Origin: Planctomycetaceae bacterium
GTDB lineage: Bacteria; Planctomycetota; Planctomycetia; Pirellulales; Pirellulaceae
Assembly: GCA_007127095.1 (NCBI GenBank)
Contig: SKZY01000217.1
Coordinates: forward strand, 1-32,854
Length of the DNA: 32,854 nt
Direction of reading: 5' to 3'
The position numbers were made by a program, and so were the translations under genes. Below are positions 10,299-16,610 of this stretch, piece by piece. Below the pieces are notes generated by a model that made no database searches, had not been told where the DNA came from, and saw only the letters and a list, made by a program, of their open reading frames with translations. How positions within the stretch are numbered: position 1 is the stretch's first letter; each line of letters begins with the position of its first letter.

Positions 10299-11213
10299 TC
10301 AGGGTCGCGAGTTGGTCGGTGCCGCGAGCAACGACTTTCCCAACGCGATCAATTGACGCAGGCTGTCACAGTGCGCCGTGTACCGCAAACGTGGCCGCAG
10401 CGAATCGTTCGCCGCCCGCCCACCAATCAACAAAGTCGTCGCGGGGGGAAGTTGGTCGGCCAAGCCGTTGAACGCTTCGACAAAACGTTCTTCATCGGCC
10501 AGATACGAGAGACTGACCCAGATCAACCGCGGTTGATACTCGTCCGTCGCCTTGCGAAAGTCGCGCATCGGCAGGTCGTTGCCGAGCGAGTGGGCTCGCC
10601 AACCACACTCCAATAGCGCCAGTTCGACCAGTGCGGTCGGGAGTTGATAAGTATCGCCTTCGGGCGCCCCACCGATCGCGACCGGAGACGCCTCCGAGAG
10701 CGGCAGTTGACGTTTCAATCCGGCGATCAGGTGGCTCGCGATCCCGCACGCTCGACGTTCCTGATAGACCTCGAGGTCACCACTTTCCCACAAACTGCCG
10801 AGGCAGTGCATCGATGGCGTGATCAGCAAGTCGGCGGCAGTCGAAGGCGATAACCCTCGATCGATCGCCGAGTTCAGCAGTTGACGACATCGCACTTCGT
10901 TCCCGCTGGCGAGCGAATCTTGAAACTCGTTGCAGAGATCCTCCAGCGAACCGACCGCTGACGATTCCTCGGCAATCGCTGCCCCGCCACCGTCGCTGGA
11001 CCCGCCGAAGTCACCCCCAGCAGCACTCAGCCGCGGAAAGCCTGAGGTCGTCTTCAGCCGTTCGAGTAACTGCTCGAGCGATCCCTCGCTGACCCGCCGA
11101 TGACCACCAGCGGTCCGGACCACCGGAACAGCGCCTTGGTCGAGCCACCGCTTCACAGACGATTCGCTGACGCCCAATCGCGCCGCGACTTGTTTCGGTG
11201 AATAGTGCGTCAA
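10299..11213 (-). CDS. CarH/LitR-like MerR-family regulator with B12-binding fold
   Basis: A 304-residue regulator. An N-terminal MerR/BldC-type helix-turn-helix (YSPKQVAARLGVSESSVKRW, then RTAGGHRR) is followed by a linker, a helical bundle and a Rossmann-like B12-binding fold. This is the CarH/LitR architecture (Thermus CarH is 285 residues). The helical bundle keeps W142 and E152 of the W-x9-EH motif, but the His is Arg153. The axial-ligand motif DxHxxG reads DTYQLP, with Tyr189 where the cobalt-binding His should be. Cobalamin binding in the classical way is therefore doubtful. I chose TTG 11213 because AGAGGG lies nine bases upstream and the HTH begins there; the open frame to 11402 adds non-domain sequence and would cross the operator region. 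It is divergent from the sigma factor gene, with four repeated sites between them. Confidence 0.88.
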   Translation of the reverse strand: MTHYSPKQVAARLGVSESSVKRWLDQGAVPVVRTAGGHRRVSEGSLEQLLERLKTTSGFPRLSAAGGDFGGSSDGGGAAIAEESSAVGSLEDLCNEFQDSLASGNEVRCRQLLNSAIDRGLSPSTAADLLITPSMHCLGSLWESGDLEVYQERRACGIASHLIAGLKRQLPLSEASPVAIGGAPEGDTYQLPTALVELALLECGWRAHSLGNDLPMRDFRKATDEYQPRLIWVSLSYLADEERFVEAFNGLADQLPPATTLLIGGRAANDSLRPRLRYTAHCDSLRQLIALGKSLLAAPTNSRP

Positions 11214-11228
11214 GGAATACGGCCCTCT

Positions 11229-11246
11229 CGGTGAACGTTTTGAACG
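11229..11246 (+). promoter_or_regulatory. Operator-like site A
   Basis: CGGTGAACGTTTTGAACG, starting 16 bases upstream of the predicted TTG start of the CarH-like gene. It is one of four related sites in this intergenic region; it shares 14 of 16 positions with site C (opposite orientation) and 14 of 17 with site D. Its position suits autoregulation of the regulator gene. Confidence 0.6.
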
Positions 11247-11358
11247 AATATTACTAGGACTGTAGCCGATTTCTCGCGATCGACCACCGCTTATATCACA
11301 AAAAACAGGCGAATTGTCGGCGATTTGGTGGCAGGCGGCGCGATTCTCGACAATCGAC

Positions 11359-11375
11359 CAAAAAACGTTCGCGGT
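11359..11375 (-). promoter_or_regulatory. Operator-like site B
   Basis: On the minus strand it reads CCGCGAACGTTTTTTGG, sharing the GAACGTTTT core with sites A and C. It lies just upstream of the -35 element of the predicted sigma-factor promoter. Confidence 0.5.
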
Positions 11376-11378
11376 CCC

Positions 11379-11394
11379 TTGAAAACGTTCACGG
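11379..11394 (-). promoter_or_regulatory. Operator-like site C
   Basis: On the minus strand it reads CCGTGAACGTTTTCAA. It covers the -35 hexamer and part of the spacer of the sigma-factor promoter, so a bound protein should block or remodel that promoter. It matches site A at 14 of 16 positions in inverted orientation. Confidence 0.6.
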
Positions 11395-11407
11395 TGTCCC
11401 ATATAAC
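11379..11407 (+). promoter_or_regulatory. Predicted promoter of the sigma-factor gene
   Basis: TTGAAA (11379-11384), a 17-bp spacer and TATAAC (11402-11407) match the housekeeping promoter consensus at 5 of 6 positions in each hexamer. Operator-like site C overlaps the -35, B flanks it upstream and D lies after the start point. Confidence 0.65.
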
Positions 11408-11414
11408 AGATCGA

Positions 11415-11431
11415 GTTGACCGTTTTGAATG
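11415..11431 (+). promoter_or_regulatory. Operator-like site D
   Basis: GTTGACCGTTTTGAATG, matching site A at 14 of 17 positions in the same orientation. It lies just downstream of the expected transcription start of the sigma-factor gene (about 11414). Confidence 0.5.
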
Positions 11432-11490
11432 TTTTCGATGGCCGGCGTGGTCACGGTCGTCTCAGTCTTTTACACGTGGGAGTCCCCGAG

Positions 11491-12594
11491 ATGTCAGTTC
11501 AGACAATGGTCGGATCGATCGATGAGGTCAACACCGCTGGCGGCTCCCCGAAAACGTCGATTCGCGATCGGGCAGTCGGAACGAATCAATCGCGCTCCCG
11601 TCGGTTGCCCGCCTGGTTGAAGTCCGAAGAACTGGCGGCTGCGACCCTCGAGTGGCAGCGGAACAAGACCGATTTTGCAGCCCTCGATCGGGTCGCTTTG
11701 AAGCGACGGGTCGGCGCCGCGATCAAGACCGAAATCGGCCTGATCTCCAATCCAGAATTCGAAAACGCCTCCATCGGTGAGCAGATTTTTGCTTCCTCGC
11801 TGGGGCTGGCCGCGGCGAGCAGCGAGGTCGGGATCTCGACGATCAAGAGAGCCGGAGTCGACTTGCCGGTCCACCTCGGCCGGCTGTGCGAGGCCAAATT
11901 GCTGACGCCCGAGCAGGAGTCGCTGCTGTTTCAACGGATGAACTTTCTGAAATCCCAAGCTTTGAAGGTCCGGGCGCAACTCTCTTCGGATCGTCCTTCT
12001 CGGCGATCACTCGAACTGCTCGAGCGTCTGCTCTCGCTGGCCGATTGGCACCGAGACCGGATCGTCGAGGCGAATATGCGACTGGTGTTCTCGATCGTCA
12101 AAAAGTTTGTCAACGCCACGAATCAATTCGACGATCTGCTCAGCGACGGGATCGTGGCGTTGATGCGAGCGGTTGAAAAGTTCGATTACGGCCGCGGTTT
12201 CCGTTTCAGTACCTACGCGACGCAGGTCGTTCGACGGAACGCCTATCGCGAGGTGGTTCAAAACCAACAGGATCGGGCCAAGGTCGTTTCGGGGGTCGAA
12301 GATTTGGGTTTGGACGTTAGCGATGAGGTCCGCGAGTCGGCGATCAGTGAAAAGCGATGGCACGAATTGCGAGCCAGGCTGAGCGTGATGCTGGGCGACC
12401 TCGACCGACGAGAAAAGTTCATCATCCGGGCTCGCTTTTCGCTCGGATCGCACCGCCGGGTTCACACCCTGCAAGCACTCGCCGATCGGCTCGGTGTCTC
12501 CAAGGAGCGGGTCCGGCAACTGGAACGTCGGGCGATGGAAAAACTCCGGGCGATGGCTGGAGAAGTTTCGCTCGCTGAGCTCGGATGCGAGTGA
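11491..12594 (+). CDS. Sigma-70-family RNA polymerase sigma factor
   Basis: A 367-residue sigma factor. Region 1.2-like sequence (DLPVHLGRLCEAKLLTPEQE) lies around residue 125. Region 2 runs over about 190-255, with NMRLVFSIVKKF, DLLSDGIVALMRAVEKFDY and GFRFSTYATQVVRRNAYR. Region 4 runs over about 295-355 and ends in the helix-turn-helix LQALADRLGVSKERVRQLE. Region 3 is short. It is longer than ECF factors and resembles group 2/3 sigma-70 proteins. I chose ATG 11491 (GGGAG lies eight bases before it) over 11416, which would place the start inside site D. It is divergent from the CarH-like regulator and shares an operator array with it, so that regulator probably controls it. This parallels the litR-litS pair of Streptomyces, although LitS is an ECF factor. 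Confidence 0.92.
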   Translation: MSVQTMVGSIDEVNTAGGSPKTSIRDRAVGTNQSRSRRLPAWLKSEELAAATLEWQRNKTDFAALDRVALKRRVGAAIKTEIGLISNPEFENASIGEQIFASSLGLAAASSEVGISTIKRAGVDLPVHLGRLCEAKLLTPEQESLLFQRMNFLKSQALKVRAQLSSDRPSRRSLELLERLLSLADWHRDRIVEANMRLVFSIVKKFVNATNQFDDLLSDGIVALMRAVEKFDYGRGFRFSTYATQVVRRNAYREVVQNQQDRAKVVSGVEDLGLDVSDEVRESAISEKRWHELRARLSVMLGDLDRREKFIIRARFSLGSHRRVHTLQALADRLGVSKERVRQLERRAMEKLRAMAGEVSLAELGCE

Positions 12595-12702: not shown

Positions 12703-14202
12703 ATGCCTGACAAGAACCAACGTTCGCAGCGCTTCGAAGCGACCTCTCGCGTCGCGGTATCTCAAGACCGCTTGTTCGCTTATCACGCCGCACCGGGGGC
12801 GTTGTCGCGGCTGATTCCGCCTTGGGACAATGTGGTGGTGGAGTCGAGCGACGGATCGCTCGAGCCCGGCTCGCGAGTCGTTTTGAAAATGAAGGTGGGA
12901 CCGGTTCCGCTCCGTTGGGTCGCCGTTCACGGCGATTTCGATCCGCCCGATTCGTTCGTCGACGTCCAGCAGAGTGGGCCATTCGCGTACTGGCACCATC
13001 GTCATCTCTTTTCTACGGTCGCTGCGGATCCGGTCGATTTCGGTTCGCAGACGCGACCACCAGAGCGTTCGCTGCTGACCGATCAGATCGATTACCGGTT
13101 GCCACTCGGTTGGGCCGGCAAAGCGGTGATGGGGGCGAGTGTCAGACGACAATTGGAGACCATGTTCGCCTATCGCCATCGCGTCACTCGGGAAGACCTG
13201 GAAATGTTTGACAAATACGCGTTGCCGCCGAGTTCGGTCGCTGTTTCCGGAGCGACGGGACTGGTCGGTACGGAACTCTGTAGTCTGCTCGGTTTGGCCG
13301 GTCATCGGGTGACCCGTTTGGTGCGAAAGATCGACCAAGCGACCGACCCGGGCACCGACGAGATCAGCGGCCAAGCGGCCTGCGAGCGTCGGGTCGCCGT
13401 CTGGCATGACGAAGCGGAGGCACGGCGTCTGGAAGCGACCGACGCGGTCATCCATTTGGCTGGCAAGTCGATCGCGGACCAGCGTTGGTCGGAATCGGTG
13501 AAGCGATCGATTCGTGAGAGTCGTGTCATCCCGACCCGCCAACTCTGCGAGTCATTGGCCCGACTCGAACGTCCGCCAGCGACCTTGATCTGTGCCTCGG
13601 CGACCGGAATTTATGGTGATCGCGGCGATCAATGGGTCGACGAAACGTCGGAACTCGGCAGCGACTTTTTGGCTGGCGTCGGCCGTGACTGGGAGGCCGC
13701 CTGTCAGCCCGCTGTCGAGGCCGGTATCCGTGTGGTGCATGTGCGGTTCGGAATCGTGCTCTCGCCGCGAGGCGGCGCGTTGGCGAAACTGTTGACGCCA
13801 ACCAAGTTGGGGCTCGGAGGCCGTTTGGGCAGCGGAAAACAGTGGTGGAGCTGGGTCGGTATCGATGACGTCGTCGGCGCGATCTATCACGCGTTGGCCG
13901 TCCCGGAGGTTCGAGGCCCGGTCAACGTCGTGGCCCCCAACCCCGTCACAAACGCCGAGTTCACCGGTTTGGTCGGATCGGTGCTGCGGCGTCCCACGTT
14001 GTTGCCGGCCCCGGCATTCGCGCTGCGGGTCGCATTGGGCGAAATGGCCGATGCACTGCTGTTGTCGAGCACACGAGTTCGACCGCGTCGTCTGCAAGAG
14101 ACCGGCTATGAGTTTCGCCAACCCGACCTGAGAGGCTGCTTGGAGCAACTGCTCGGTCGCGATCAGTCGGGCGGCAAATCGGCGAACGGATCGACGACCT
14201 GA
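12703..14202 (+). CDS. SRPBCC domain fused to TIGR01777-family NAD-dependent epimerase
   Basis: A 499-residue fusion. Residues about 10-165 form an SRPBCC/START-like ligand-binding domain (polyketide cyclase type), ending ETMFAYRHRVTREDL. From about residue 178 an extended SDR/epimerase domain starts with the nucleotide-binding motif VSGATGLVGTELC and continues through ASATGIYGDRG and the DUF1731 C-terminus (VRPRRLQETGYEF). The substrate is unknown. TIGR01777 and SRPBCC proteins occur in light-response and CarH/LitR gene clusters of several bacteria, which fits the neighbours here. It starts at ATG 12703, 108 bases after the sigma factor gene on the same strand. A weak relative of the operator motif is present upstream near 12617-12633. 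Confidence 0.9.
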   Translation: MPDKNQRSQRFEATSRVAVSQDRLFAYHAAPGALSRLIPPWDNVVVESSDGSLEPGSRVVLKMKVGPVPLRWVAVHGDFDPPDSFVDVQQSGPFAYWHHRHLFSTVAADPVDFGSQTRPPERSLLTDQIDYRLPLGWAGKAVMGASVRRQLETMFAYRHRVTREDLEMFDKYALPPSSVAVSGATGLVGTELCSLLGLAGHRVTRLVRKIDQATDPGTDEISGQAACERRVAVWHDEAEARRLEATDAVIHLAGKSIADQRWSESVKRSIRESRVIPTRQLCESLARLERPPATLICASATGIYGDRGDQWVDETSELGSDFLAGVGRDWEAACQPAVEAGIRVVHVRFGIVLSPRGGALAKLLTPTKLGLGGRLGSGKQWWSWVGIDDVVGAIYHALAVPEVRGPVNVVAPNPVTNAEFTGLVGSVLRRPTLLPAPAFALRVALGEMADALLLSSTRVRPRRLQETGYEFRQPDLRGCLEQLLGRDQSGGKSANGSTT

Positions 14203-15618: not shown

Positions 15619-15722
15619 TACAGAGTTGAGGCTTGTCATTCGCCAAAACGGTCGCCCGCGGCCGCCATTTTCTAACCAGTCGAACTGTTTCCTTGTCGTA
15701 CGCTTGCCGGAGTTCATGGACC

Positions 15723-16610
15723 ATGAATAAGACCCTGATCGCGATCACCTTTACCGCCGGCTGGCTCGCCTTCGCTGCGTTGTCCGGCAACGTGGTGGCA
15801 GCTGAAGTCGCTGATGAGTCGCAGGTTCTGGCTTGGTTCGATGCTGAAAAAGATGGGAAGATCGAAGTCAAGTTCGTCCCCAAGGACGCGACTCAGGCAA
15901 ACGTCTTGGTCCGAAATCTCACCGACGCTCCGCTGACCCTGAAATTACCCGAAGTGTTCGCCGCCGTCCCGGTTCAAGCCCAAGGAATGATGGGTGGAAT
16001 GGGCGGCATGGGTGGCATGGGCGGCGGCATGATGGGCGGCATGGGTGGCATGGGCGGCATGGGCGGCGGCATGATGGGTGGCATGGGCGGGATGGGCGGC
16101 GGCATGCAAGGCATGGGCGGCGGCATGGGCGGCATGATGGGTGGCATGGGCGGTATGGGCGGCGGCATGATGGGTGGCGGTATGGGCGGCGGCATGATGG
16201 GTGGCGGCATGATGCGAGTGCCCGGCGAACGGCAAATGAAGCTGAAGGTCACCACGGTTTGCCTCGAACATGGCAAGCGAGACCCGAATCCGCGAGTTCC
16301 CTACAAGATGATCCCTGCTGAGCAGTTCATTCATGACCCGCAGGTCAAAGAGGTTTGCCGCCTGCTGGGCTACAACCAGATGTCGCAAAACATCGCGCAG
16401 GCCGCTGCCTGGCACCTGGCTGATGGACTCGCCTGGGATTTTCTGGCCCGTAAGAAGAAGAGCGAAGACCCCTTTACCAAACAGGTCGAGATGTGGTTCC
16501 ACCCGCTGGAATTGCACCAAGCGTCGCTGGTCGTCGCCTCGACCGCGCCCCTGGCCGATCAGGCAGACGACGCGTCGCGTTACGACGATCGCACTTACAG
16601 CAACGATTGA
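15723..16610 (+). CDS. Secreted Gly-Met-rich repeat protein, function unknown
   Basis: A 295-residue protein with a clear signal peptide (MNKTLIAITFTAGWLAFAAL, cleavage near VVAAE). The mature N-terminal part is a small beta-like domain (residues about 26-82). Then come about 77 residues, near 88-164, made almost entirely of GGM/GGMM repeats with a single Gln. The C-terminal domain has a TTVCLEHGKRDPNPRVPYKM segment that I associate with planctomycete secreted proteins of unknown function. Met-rich segments can bind copper or silver, but these lack the usual MxxM spacing in a helix, so that is only a guess. I chose ATG 15723 for the signal peptide. The 3' end overlaps the convergent next gene by 16 bases. 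Confidence 0.82.
   Translation: MNKTLIAITFTAGWLAFAALSGNVVAAEVADESQVLAWFDAEKDGKIEVKFVPKDATQANVLVRNLTDAPLTLKLPEVFAAVPVQAQGMMGGMGGMGGMGGGMMGGMGGMGGMGGGMMGGMGGMGGGMQGMGGGMGGMMGGMGGMGGGMMGGGMGGGMMGGGMMRVPGERQMKLKVTTVCLEHGKRDPNPRVPYKMIPAEQFIHDPQVKEVCRLLGYNQMSQNIAQAAAWHLADGLAWDFLARKKKSEDPFTKQVEMWFHPLELHQASLVVASTAPLADQADDASRYDDRTYSND
15986..16215 (+). repeat. GGM-coding tandem low-complexity repeat
   Basis: About 230 bases of near-repeats of GGCATGGGCGGC type, in frame inside the secreted protein gene. Such tracts are prone to length change by slippage. The opposite-strand open frames over it are shadows. Confidence 0.85.

Follow-up and report, generated by a model that had tools for sequence, protein, structure and literature searches.

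The window analyzed here, by which we mean the whole stretch of 32,854 nucleotides, carries a divergent gene pair flanking the intergenic region 11214-11490. The regulator gene lies on the reverse strand (10299..11213) and encodes a protein of 304 aa, whose TTG start at 11213 is a conserved position within the genus. On the forward strand, a sigma-70 factor with regions 2 and 4 and a long N-terminal part (11491..12594, 367 aa) starts with an ATG at 11491 and is followed, in the same direction, by an epimerase-like gene with SRPBCC and TIGR01777 (DUF1731) matches (12703..14202; TIGR01777, E=1.5e-91). The sigma gene is preceded by a forward-strand promoter of the housekeeping type, with TTGAAA at 11379-11384 and, after 17 bp, TATAAC at 11402-11407. 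An equivalent promoter, TTGAA(A/T)-17-TATAAC, is present in L051 and L052, and its -10 is kept in most of the genus. For the regulator gene, a weak candidate -10, TACAGT, may be placed on the reverse strand at 11259..11264, about 9-10 bp from the repeat site A described below; its columns are partly invariant in the genus alignment.

The sigma factor matches PF04542 and PF04545 in Pfam, with no region 3 match. A preliminary description of this DNA had set it apart from the ECF factors, and we agree, given that, with 367 aa and a PF04545 match, it is not a short two-domain protein with the ECF-type region 4 (PF08281); the assignment rests on the type of region 4, although a region 3 match is missing here just as in ECF factors. 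The protein was aligned with its orthologs and with another large sigma factor of the source genome, of 557 aa, for which the name RpoD was considered and rejected because it is also without region 3. The match of our sigma factor to MzaA, which is the sigma-like component of an anti-phage system, scores far under the NCBIfam cut-off and probably reflects general sigma similarity.

Four repeat sites between the regulator and sigma-factor genes

The intergenic region was previously described as holding four copies of a 14-bp motif in + - - + orientation. The four copies, A to D, and their orientation are as described, while the exact coordinates differ slightly (A at 11231 rather than 11229, D at 11416 rather than 11415). 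Moreover, although the sites are real, the natural repeat unit is not the 14-mer but a 9-bp direct repeat, TGAACG(T/A)TT, of which A and D are head-to-tail pairs and B and C single reversed units. Site A (11232..11249, forward strand) is the tandem repeat TGAACGTTT-TGAACGAAT and lies 18 bp before the start codon of the regulator gene. It contains an exact match to the 14-mer (GTGAACGTTTTGAA, 11231-11244, forward strand) and is the genome's best match to the dimer, with one mismatch; its AACGTTTTGAACG is retained in 5/5 congeners. Site D (11417..11434, forward strand), the tandem repeat TGACCGTTT-TGAATGTTT, begins 10 bp after the sigma-gene -10 and is likewise retained in 5/5 congeners. Its 14-mer (TTGACCGTTTTGAA, 11416-11429, forward strand) has two mismatches, and with two mismatches to the dimer it is among the genome's next-best matches after A.

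The two single units are more variable. Site C (11383..11391, reverse strand) is the unit TGAACGTTT, and its 14-mer at 11379-11392 on that strand has one mismatch; it overlaps the -35 of the sigma-gene promoter, which, like the promoter itself, agrees with the preliminary description. This site is retained in L051 and L052 and missing in L057 and L059. Site B (11363..11371, reverse strand), the unit CGAACGTTT, was read from the sequence: its 14-mer lies beyond a scan with three mismatches, but an exact AACGTTTT stands inside it at 11362-11369, and a comparable reversed unit is found in only some congeners. In L061 and L062, the site on the side of the sigma gene is built as an inverted pair rather than as a direct repeat, with TGAACGTTT followed at a distance of about 10 bp by AAACGTTCA.

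Within the window, the 14-mer with up to three mismatches has 7 matches, where shuffling predicts 2.65; three of the 7 fall within the 200-bp stretch of the array. AACGTTTT has 6 matches vs 0.98 expected. As this excess over chance inside the window alone is modest, a comparison across genomes was needed.

Conservation and genomic specificity of the repeat

Comparison of the orthologous intergenic regions shows that the operator array is conserved. Allowing two mismatches, the dimer is found within 600 bp upstream of 63 of the 80 orthologous regulators from named Planctomycetota, and in none of the shuffled controls (ten letter shuffles per locus). At 34 sigma-flanked loci, a set that partly overlaps with the former, it is found in 27 at the same threshold, vs 2/1040 dinucleotide-preserving shuffles. 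The spacing between units shows a sharp peak at 9 bp. Around 74 GAACGTT units, taken without selecting for pairs, a second unit lies at -9 in 22 cases and at +9 in 21, the next offset reaching only 5, and in relatives the units form head-to-tail pairs or triples, as in the GAACGTTTTGAACGTTATGAACGTTT of the L012 intergenic region.

The repeat is also far from random in its genomic distribution. The 18-bp dimer pattern (up to one mismatch) gives 72 matches in the genomes of 99 relatives and 5 with the reversed control. The regulator itself is present in 82 of 148 genomes searched, and the motif tracks the regulator, not the sigma factor: it occurs in 41/57 genomes with the regulator vs 1/42 without (p=1.6e-13, phylogeny not corrected for), in 5/12 with the regulator but without a recognisable sigma ortholog, and in 0/5 with the sigma factor but without the regulator, with score and frame length as the basis for calling the sigma factor present. 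In the source genome, each of the 15 further near-matches that were looked at falls inside an ORF, none being intergenic, and the fasciclin and photolyase-like genes carry no site; a broad regulon in this genome was accordingly rejected.

The gene order regulator-sigma-epimerase is conserved, in that many orthologous regulators face the same sigma factor, with the SRPBCC-TIGR01777 gene usually next. The gap between the sigma and epimerase genes is 0-18 bp in L057, L061, L064 and L065. A separate operator before the epimerase gene was considered, but no convincing dimer was found there and an operon is more likely. The epimerase gene, previously suggested as a target of the switch, is likely to be one through co-transcription with the sigma factor.

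Where the regulator's divergent neighbor in relatives is not a sigma factor, as it mostly is, it is a photolyase, a fasciclin gene or an operon coding for a flavoprotein, DUF1365 and CFA synthase. Dimers are likewise found before unlinked sigma genes (in L155, L157, L165, L180 and others) and before fasciclin genes, of which one is about 386 kb away from the regulator. The idea of a self-contained regulator-sigma switch holds in this species but not in its relatives, whose unlinked sigma genes and fasciclin genes carry this operator as well. No sites were found generally upstream of DUF1365 and photolyase genes in the relatives searched, and three regulators facing only a photolyase partner (L279, L282 and L288) are without a good 9-bp dimer; their site preference may have diverged. 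At L045, a fasciclin-like gene is located on the regulator's other side, besides the divergent sigma factor.

Domains of the regulator and its kinship to known systems

The regulator combines a BldC/MerR-like DNA-binding domain with a CarH-like helical-bundle/Rossmann domain, as judged from Pfam, PDB and AlphaFold. Pfam matches are HTH_17, MerR and B12-binding_2 (the helical bundle), while the NCBIfam scores for CarH and BldC are both under cut-off. The AlphaFold model (pLDDT 89.6) gives 8jbs (CtMerR) and 5c8d (CarH) as Foldseek fold matches. With a MerR-type DNA-binding domain, a helical bundle and a Rossmann B12 domain in this order, the regulator has the architecture of CarH from Thermus thermophilus and Myxococcus, which also shares a direct-repeat operator over the -35. 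The closest PDB relative is CtMerR of Chloracidobacterium thermophilum (8jbs/8jbt; 8jbs, E=5e-31). It is the best match in sequence and, for the B12-type domain, also the top match in fold, and shares with the regulator the domain order and the SESSVKRW of the DNA-binding domain.

The published light-signature elements of CarH-type photoreceptors, as given in PMC11796333, are GxxW, GxxxP, EH and GxxH. G139, W142, G211 and P215, which make up the first two, are invariant in the regulator orthologs. In contrast, EH is absent and replaced by ER in 52/52 orthologs (77/80 in the named Planctomycetota set), and the lower axial ligand of GxxH is absent as well, the motif reading GDTY (GxxY), with Tyr in 50/52 orthologs and His in none; in the named set, 75/80 have Tyr. 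For CarH and BldC, the reference rows of the alignment behind these residue columns are independently matched by PDB alignments, which give the same residues. Judged by its sequences, the family as a whole has lost two of the four elements, and AdoCbl light sensing by the regulator appears doubtful for this reason. The earlier classification as CarH/LitR-like can be kept as regards the fold, but with two conserved elements missing the regulator falls outside the published definition of a CarH/LitR photoreceptor. CtMerR itself keeps EH and GxxH and binds AdoCbl, whereas the planctomycete family has ER and GxxY.

A kinship of the sites to known operators of this group is not borne out. The CarH operator is an 11-bp repeat, nAnnTnnACAn (PMC8156234), and CarH repression needs AdoCbl, whereas the period here is 9 bp and the ligand His is missing. 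The class II LitR proteins of Pseudomonas (PplR1, PmlR2) resemble our case as CarH relatives judged unable to bind B12, with repressor sites at the -35 and past the start site and light-inducible targets that include photolyase. However, their site is TGTACA-N12-TGTACA and not a tandem TGAACG(T/A)TT, no divergent sigma factor is described for them, and they reportedly keep the 4-helix bundle only, whereas the regulator keeps both halves of the B12 domain, each modelled with high confidence. Regulator-sigma pairing is common to LitR-LitS of Streptomyces, in which a CarH-type regulator is paired with an ECF sigma factor, LitS; here, the sigma factor has a PF04545-type region 4. The system appears to work like a CarH/LitR switch, yet it falls outside CarH by the features compared.

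The 9-bp period points instead to BldC of Streptomyces, onto whose structures (6ama/6amk) the DNA-binding domain of the regulator can be aligned. The Arg-Trp of the aligned helix, a contacting pair in BldC, is conserved in the regulator family. R22, invariant among orthologs, presumably corresponds to the BldC Arg said to read C. With 304 aa and a second folded domain, the regulator is not a DNA-binding domain only, as is BldC with its 68 aa and no effector domain. BldC binds one 9-bp direct repeat per protomer, AATTXXXX(C) (PMC5859096), and the reverse-strand unit AAAACGTTC fits its W4-N4-C pattern.

Proposed switch and its alternatives

We consider it quite likely that the array is the operator of an autoregulated repressor that controls a photo-oxidative-stress sigma cascade. 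One DNA-binding domain would occupy each 9-bp unit, and, as the layout of the operator suggests, copies of the regulator would pack head to tail on the tandem units in the manner of BldC. From site A, the regulator would curb transcription of its own gene, and from B, C and D, which lie over the -35 and just past the -10, it would block RNA polymerase at the sigma-gene promoter. The distance of about 10 bp between a -10 (a weak one for the regulator gene) and the dimer downstream of it, at A as at D, together with C over the -35, predicts simple polymerase exclusion. It counts against this explanation that B and C consist of one unit each and have been kept by only some congeners, and that regulators with only a photolyase as partner have no good dimer. 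A signal would then remove the repressor and allow production of the sigma factor and of the probably co-transcribed SRPBCC-epimerase, and the sigma factor would in turn amplify the response. Judging from the gene neighbors, this signal is most likely light or photo-oxidative stress, which we propose because the partner genes overlap with the singlet-oxygen regulon of Rhodobacter sphaeroides RpoE, which includes fasciclin, CFA-type genes, photolyase and a second sigma factor (PMC7074977). RpoE, in contrast to what is proposed for the sigma factor here, is controlled via proteolysis of the anti-sigma factor ChrR and not by a DNA-binding repressor.

The fold, the retained GxxW and GxxxP, and the fact that CtMerR, the closest characterised relative, binds AdoCbl as a tetramer that disassembles in light (PMC11796333) would be compatible with a genuine CarH-type photoreceptor that depends on AdoCbl but uses a changed operator. 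The change of EH to ER and of the lower-ligand His to Tyr in nearly all orthologs makes this unlikely. It is slightly less probable still that the regulator activates the sigma promoter. Classical MerR proteins are activators, B lies upstream of the -35, and the dimer pairs of relatives, often 57-61 bp apart, could permit looping or activation, but the spacer has a normal 17 bp, C on the -35 and D just past the -10 should exclude polymerase, and the characterised CarH and class II LitR relatives are repressors (PMC8156234, PMC9758184).

Instead of the regulator, the sigma factor might read the repeats, which would then form an autoregulatory element of its promoter, or the reader might be a protein whose distribution follows that of the sigma factor. 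While dimers adjoin sigma genes, unlinked ones included, and there is an overall association between sigma factor and motif, the regulator and the motif occur together in five genomes with no recognisable sigma factor, and another five have the sigma factor only and no motif; moreover, the pairs stand downstream of a -10 in either orientation, unlike a promoter element, and we regard this explanation as very improbable. As for a chance likeness among short and AT-rich intergenic words, which the modest enrichment within the window might suggest, it is refuted by the comparative data (conservation, 9-bp periodicity, genome specificity and the confinement of the 15 other near-matches to ORFs) and has a negligible probability.

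Beyond this locus, it is conceivable, with somewhat less than an even chance, that planctomycetes at large use CarH-fold repressors without B12 ligands, which would bind head to tail on BldC-type 9-bp repeats, sense something other than AdoCbl and govern a photo-oxidative-stress regulon via a sigma factor without region 3. Such repressors would unite features so far described in different kinds of regulator, namely the CarH fold with its effector domain and the reading of 9-bp direct repeats by BldC. A further question is which signal a CarH-type domain responds to after lineage-wide loss of the cobalamin ligands; in a non-AdoCbl reading, Arg153, Tyr189 and Cys156 would be candidate sensing residues, the latter two being near-invariant. 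The preliminary description knew of no account of such a switch in planctomycetes, and in the open-access literature searched we likewise found no relevant paper on planctomycete LitR/CarH. Gene regulation in planctomycetes is little charted, and the locus offers a testable stress-response circuit with defined operator, promoter and targets.

Two further observations are worth noting. In relatives, dimers often occur in same-orientation pairs 57-64 bp apart upstream of sigma or fasciclin genes (seen at L033, L046, L155, L156, L157, L166, L174 and L180), a recurrence that hints at cooperative or looped binding. Elsewhere in the window, the ORF at 15633-16610 contains a long Met/Gly-rich repeat stretch (GGMGGMGG).
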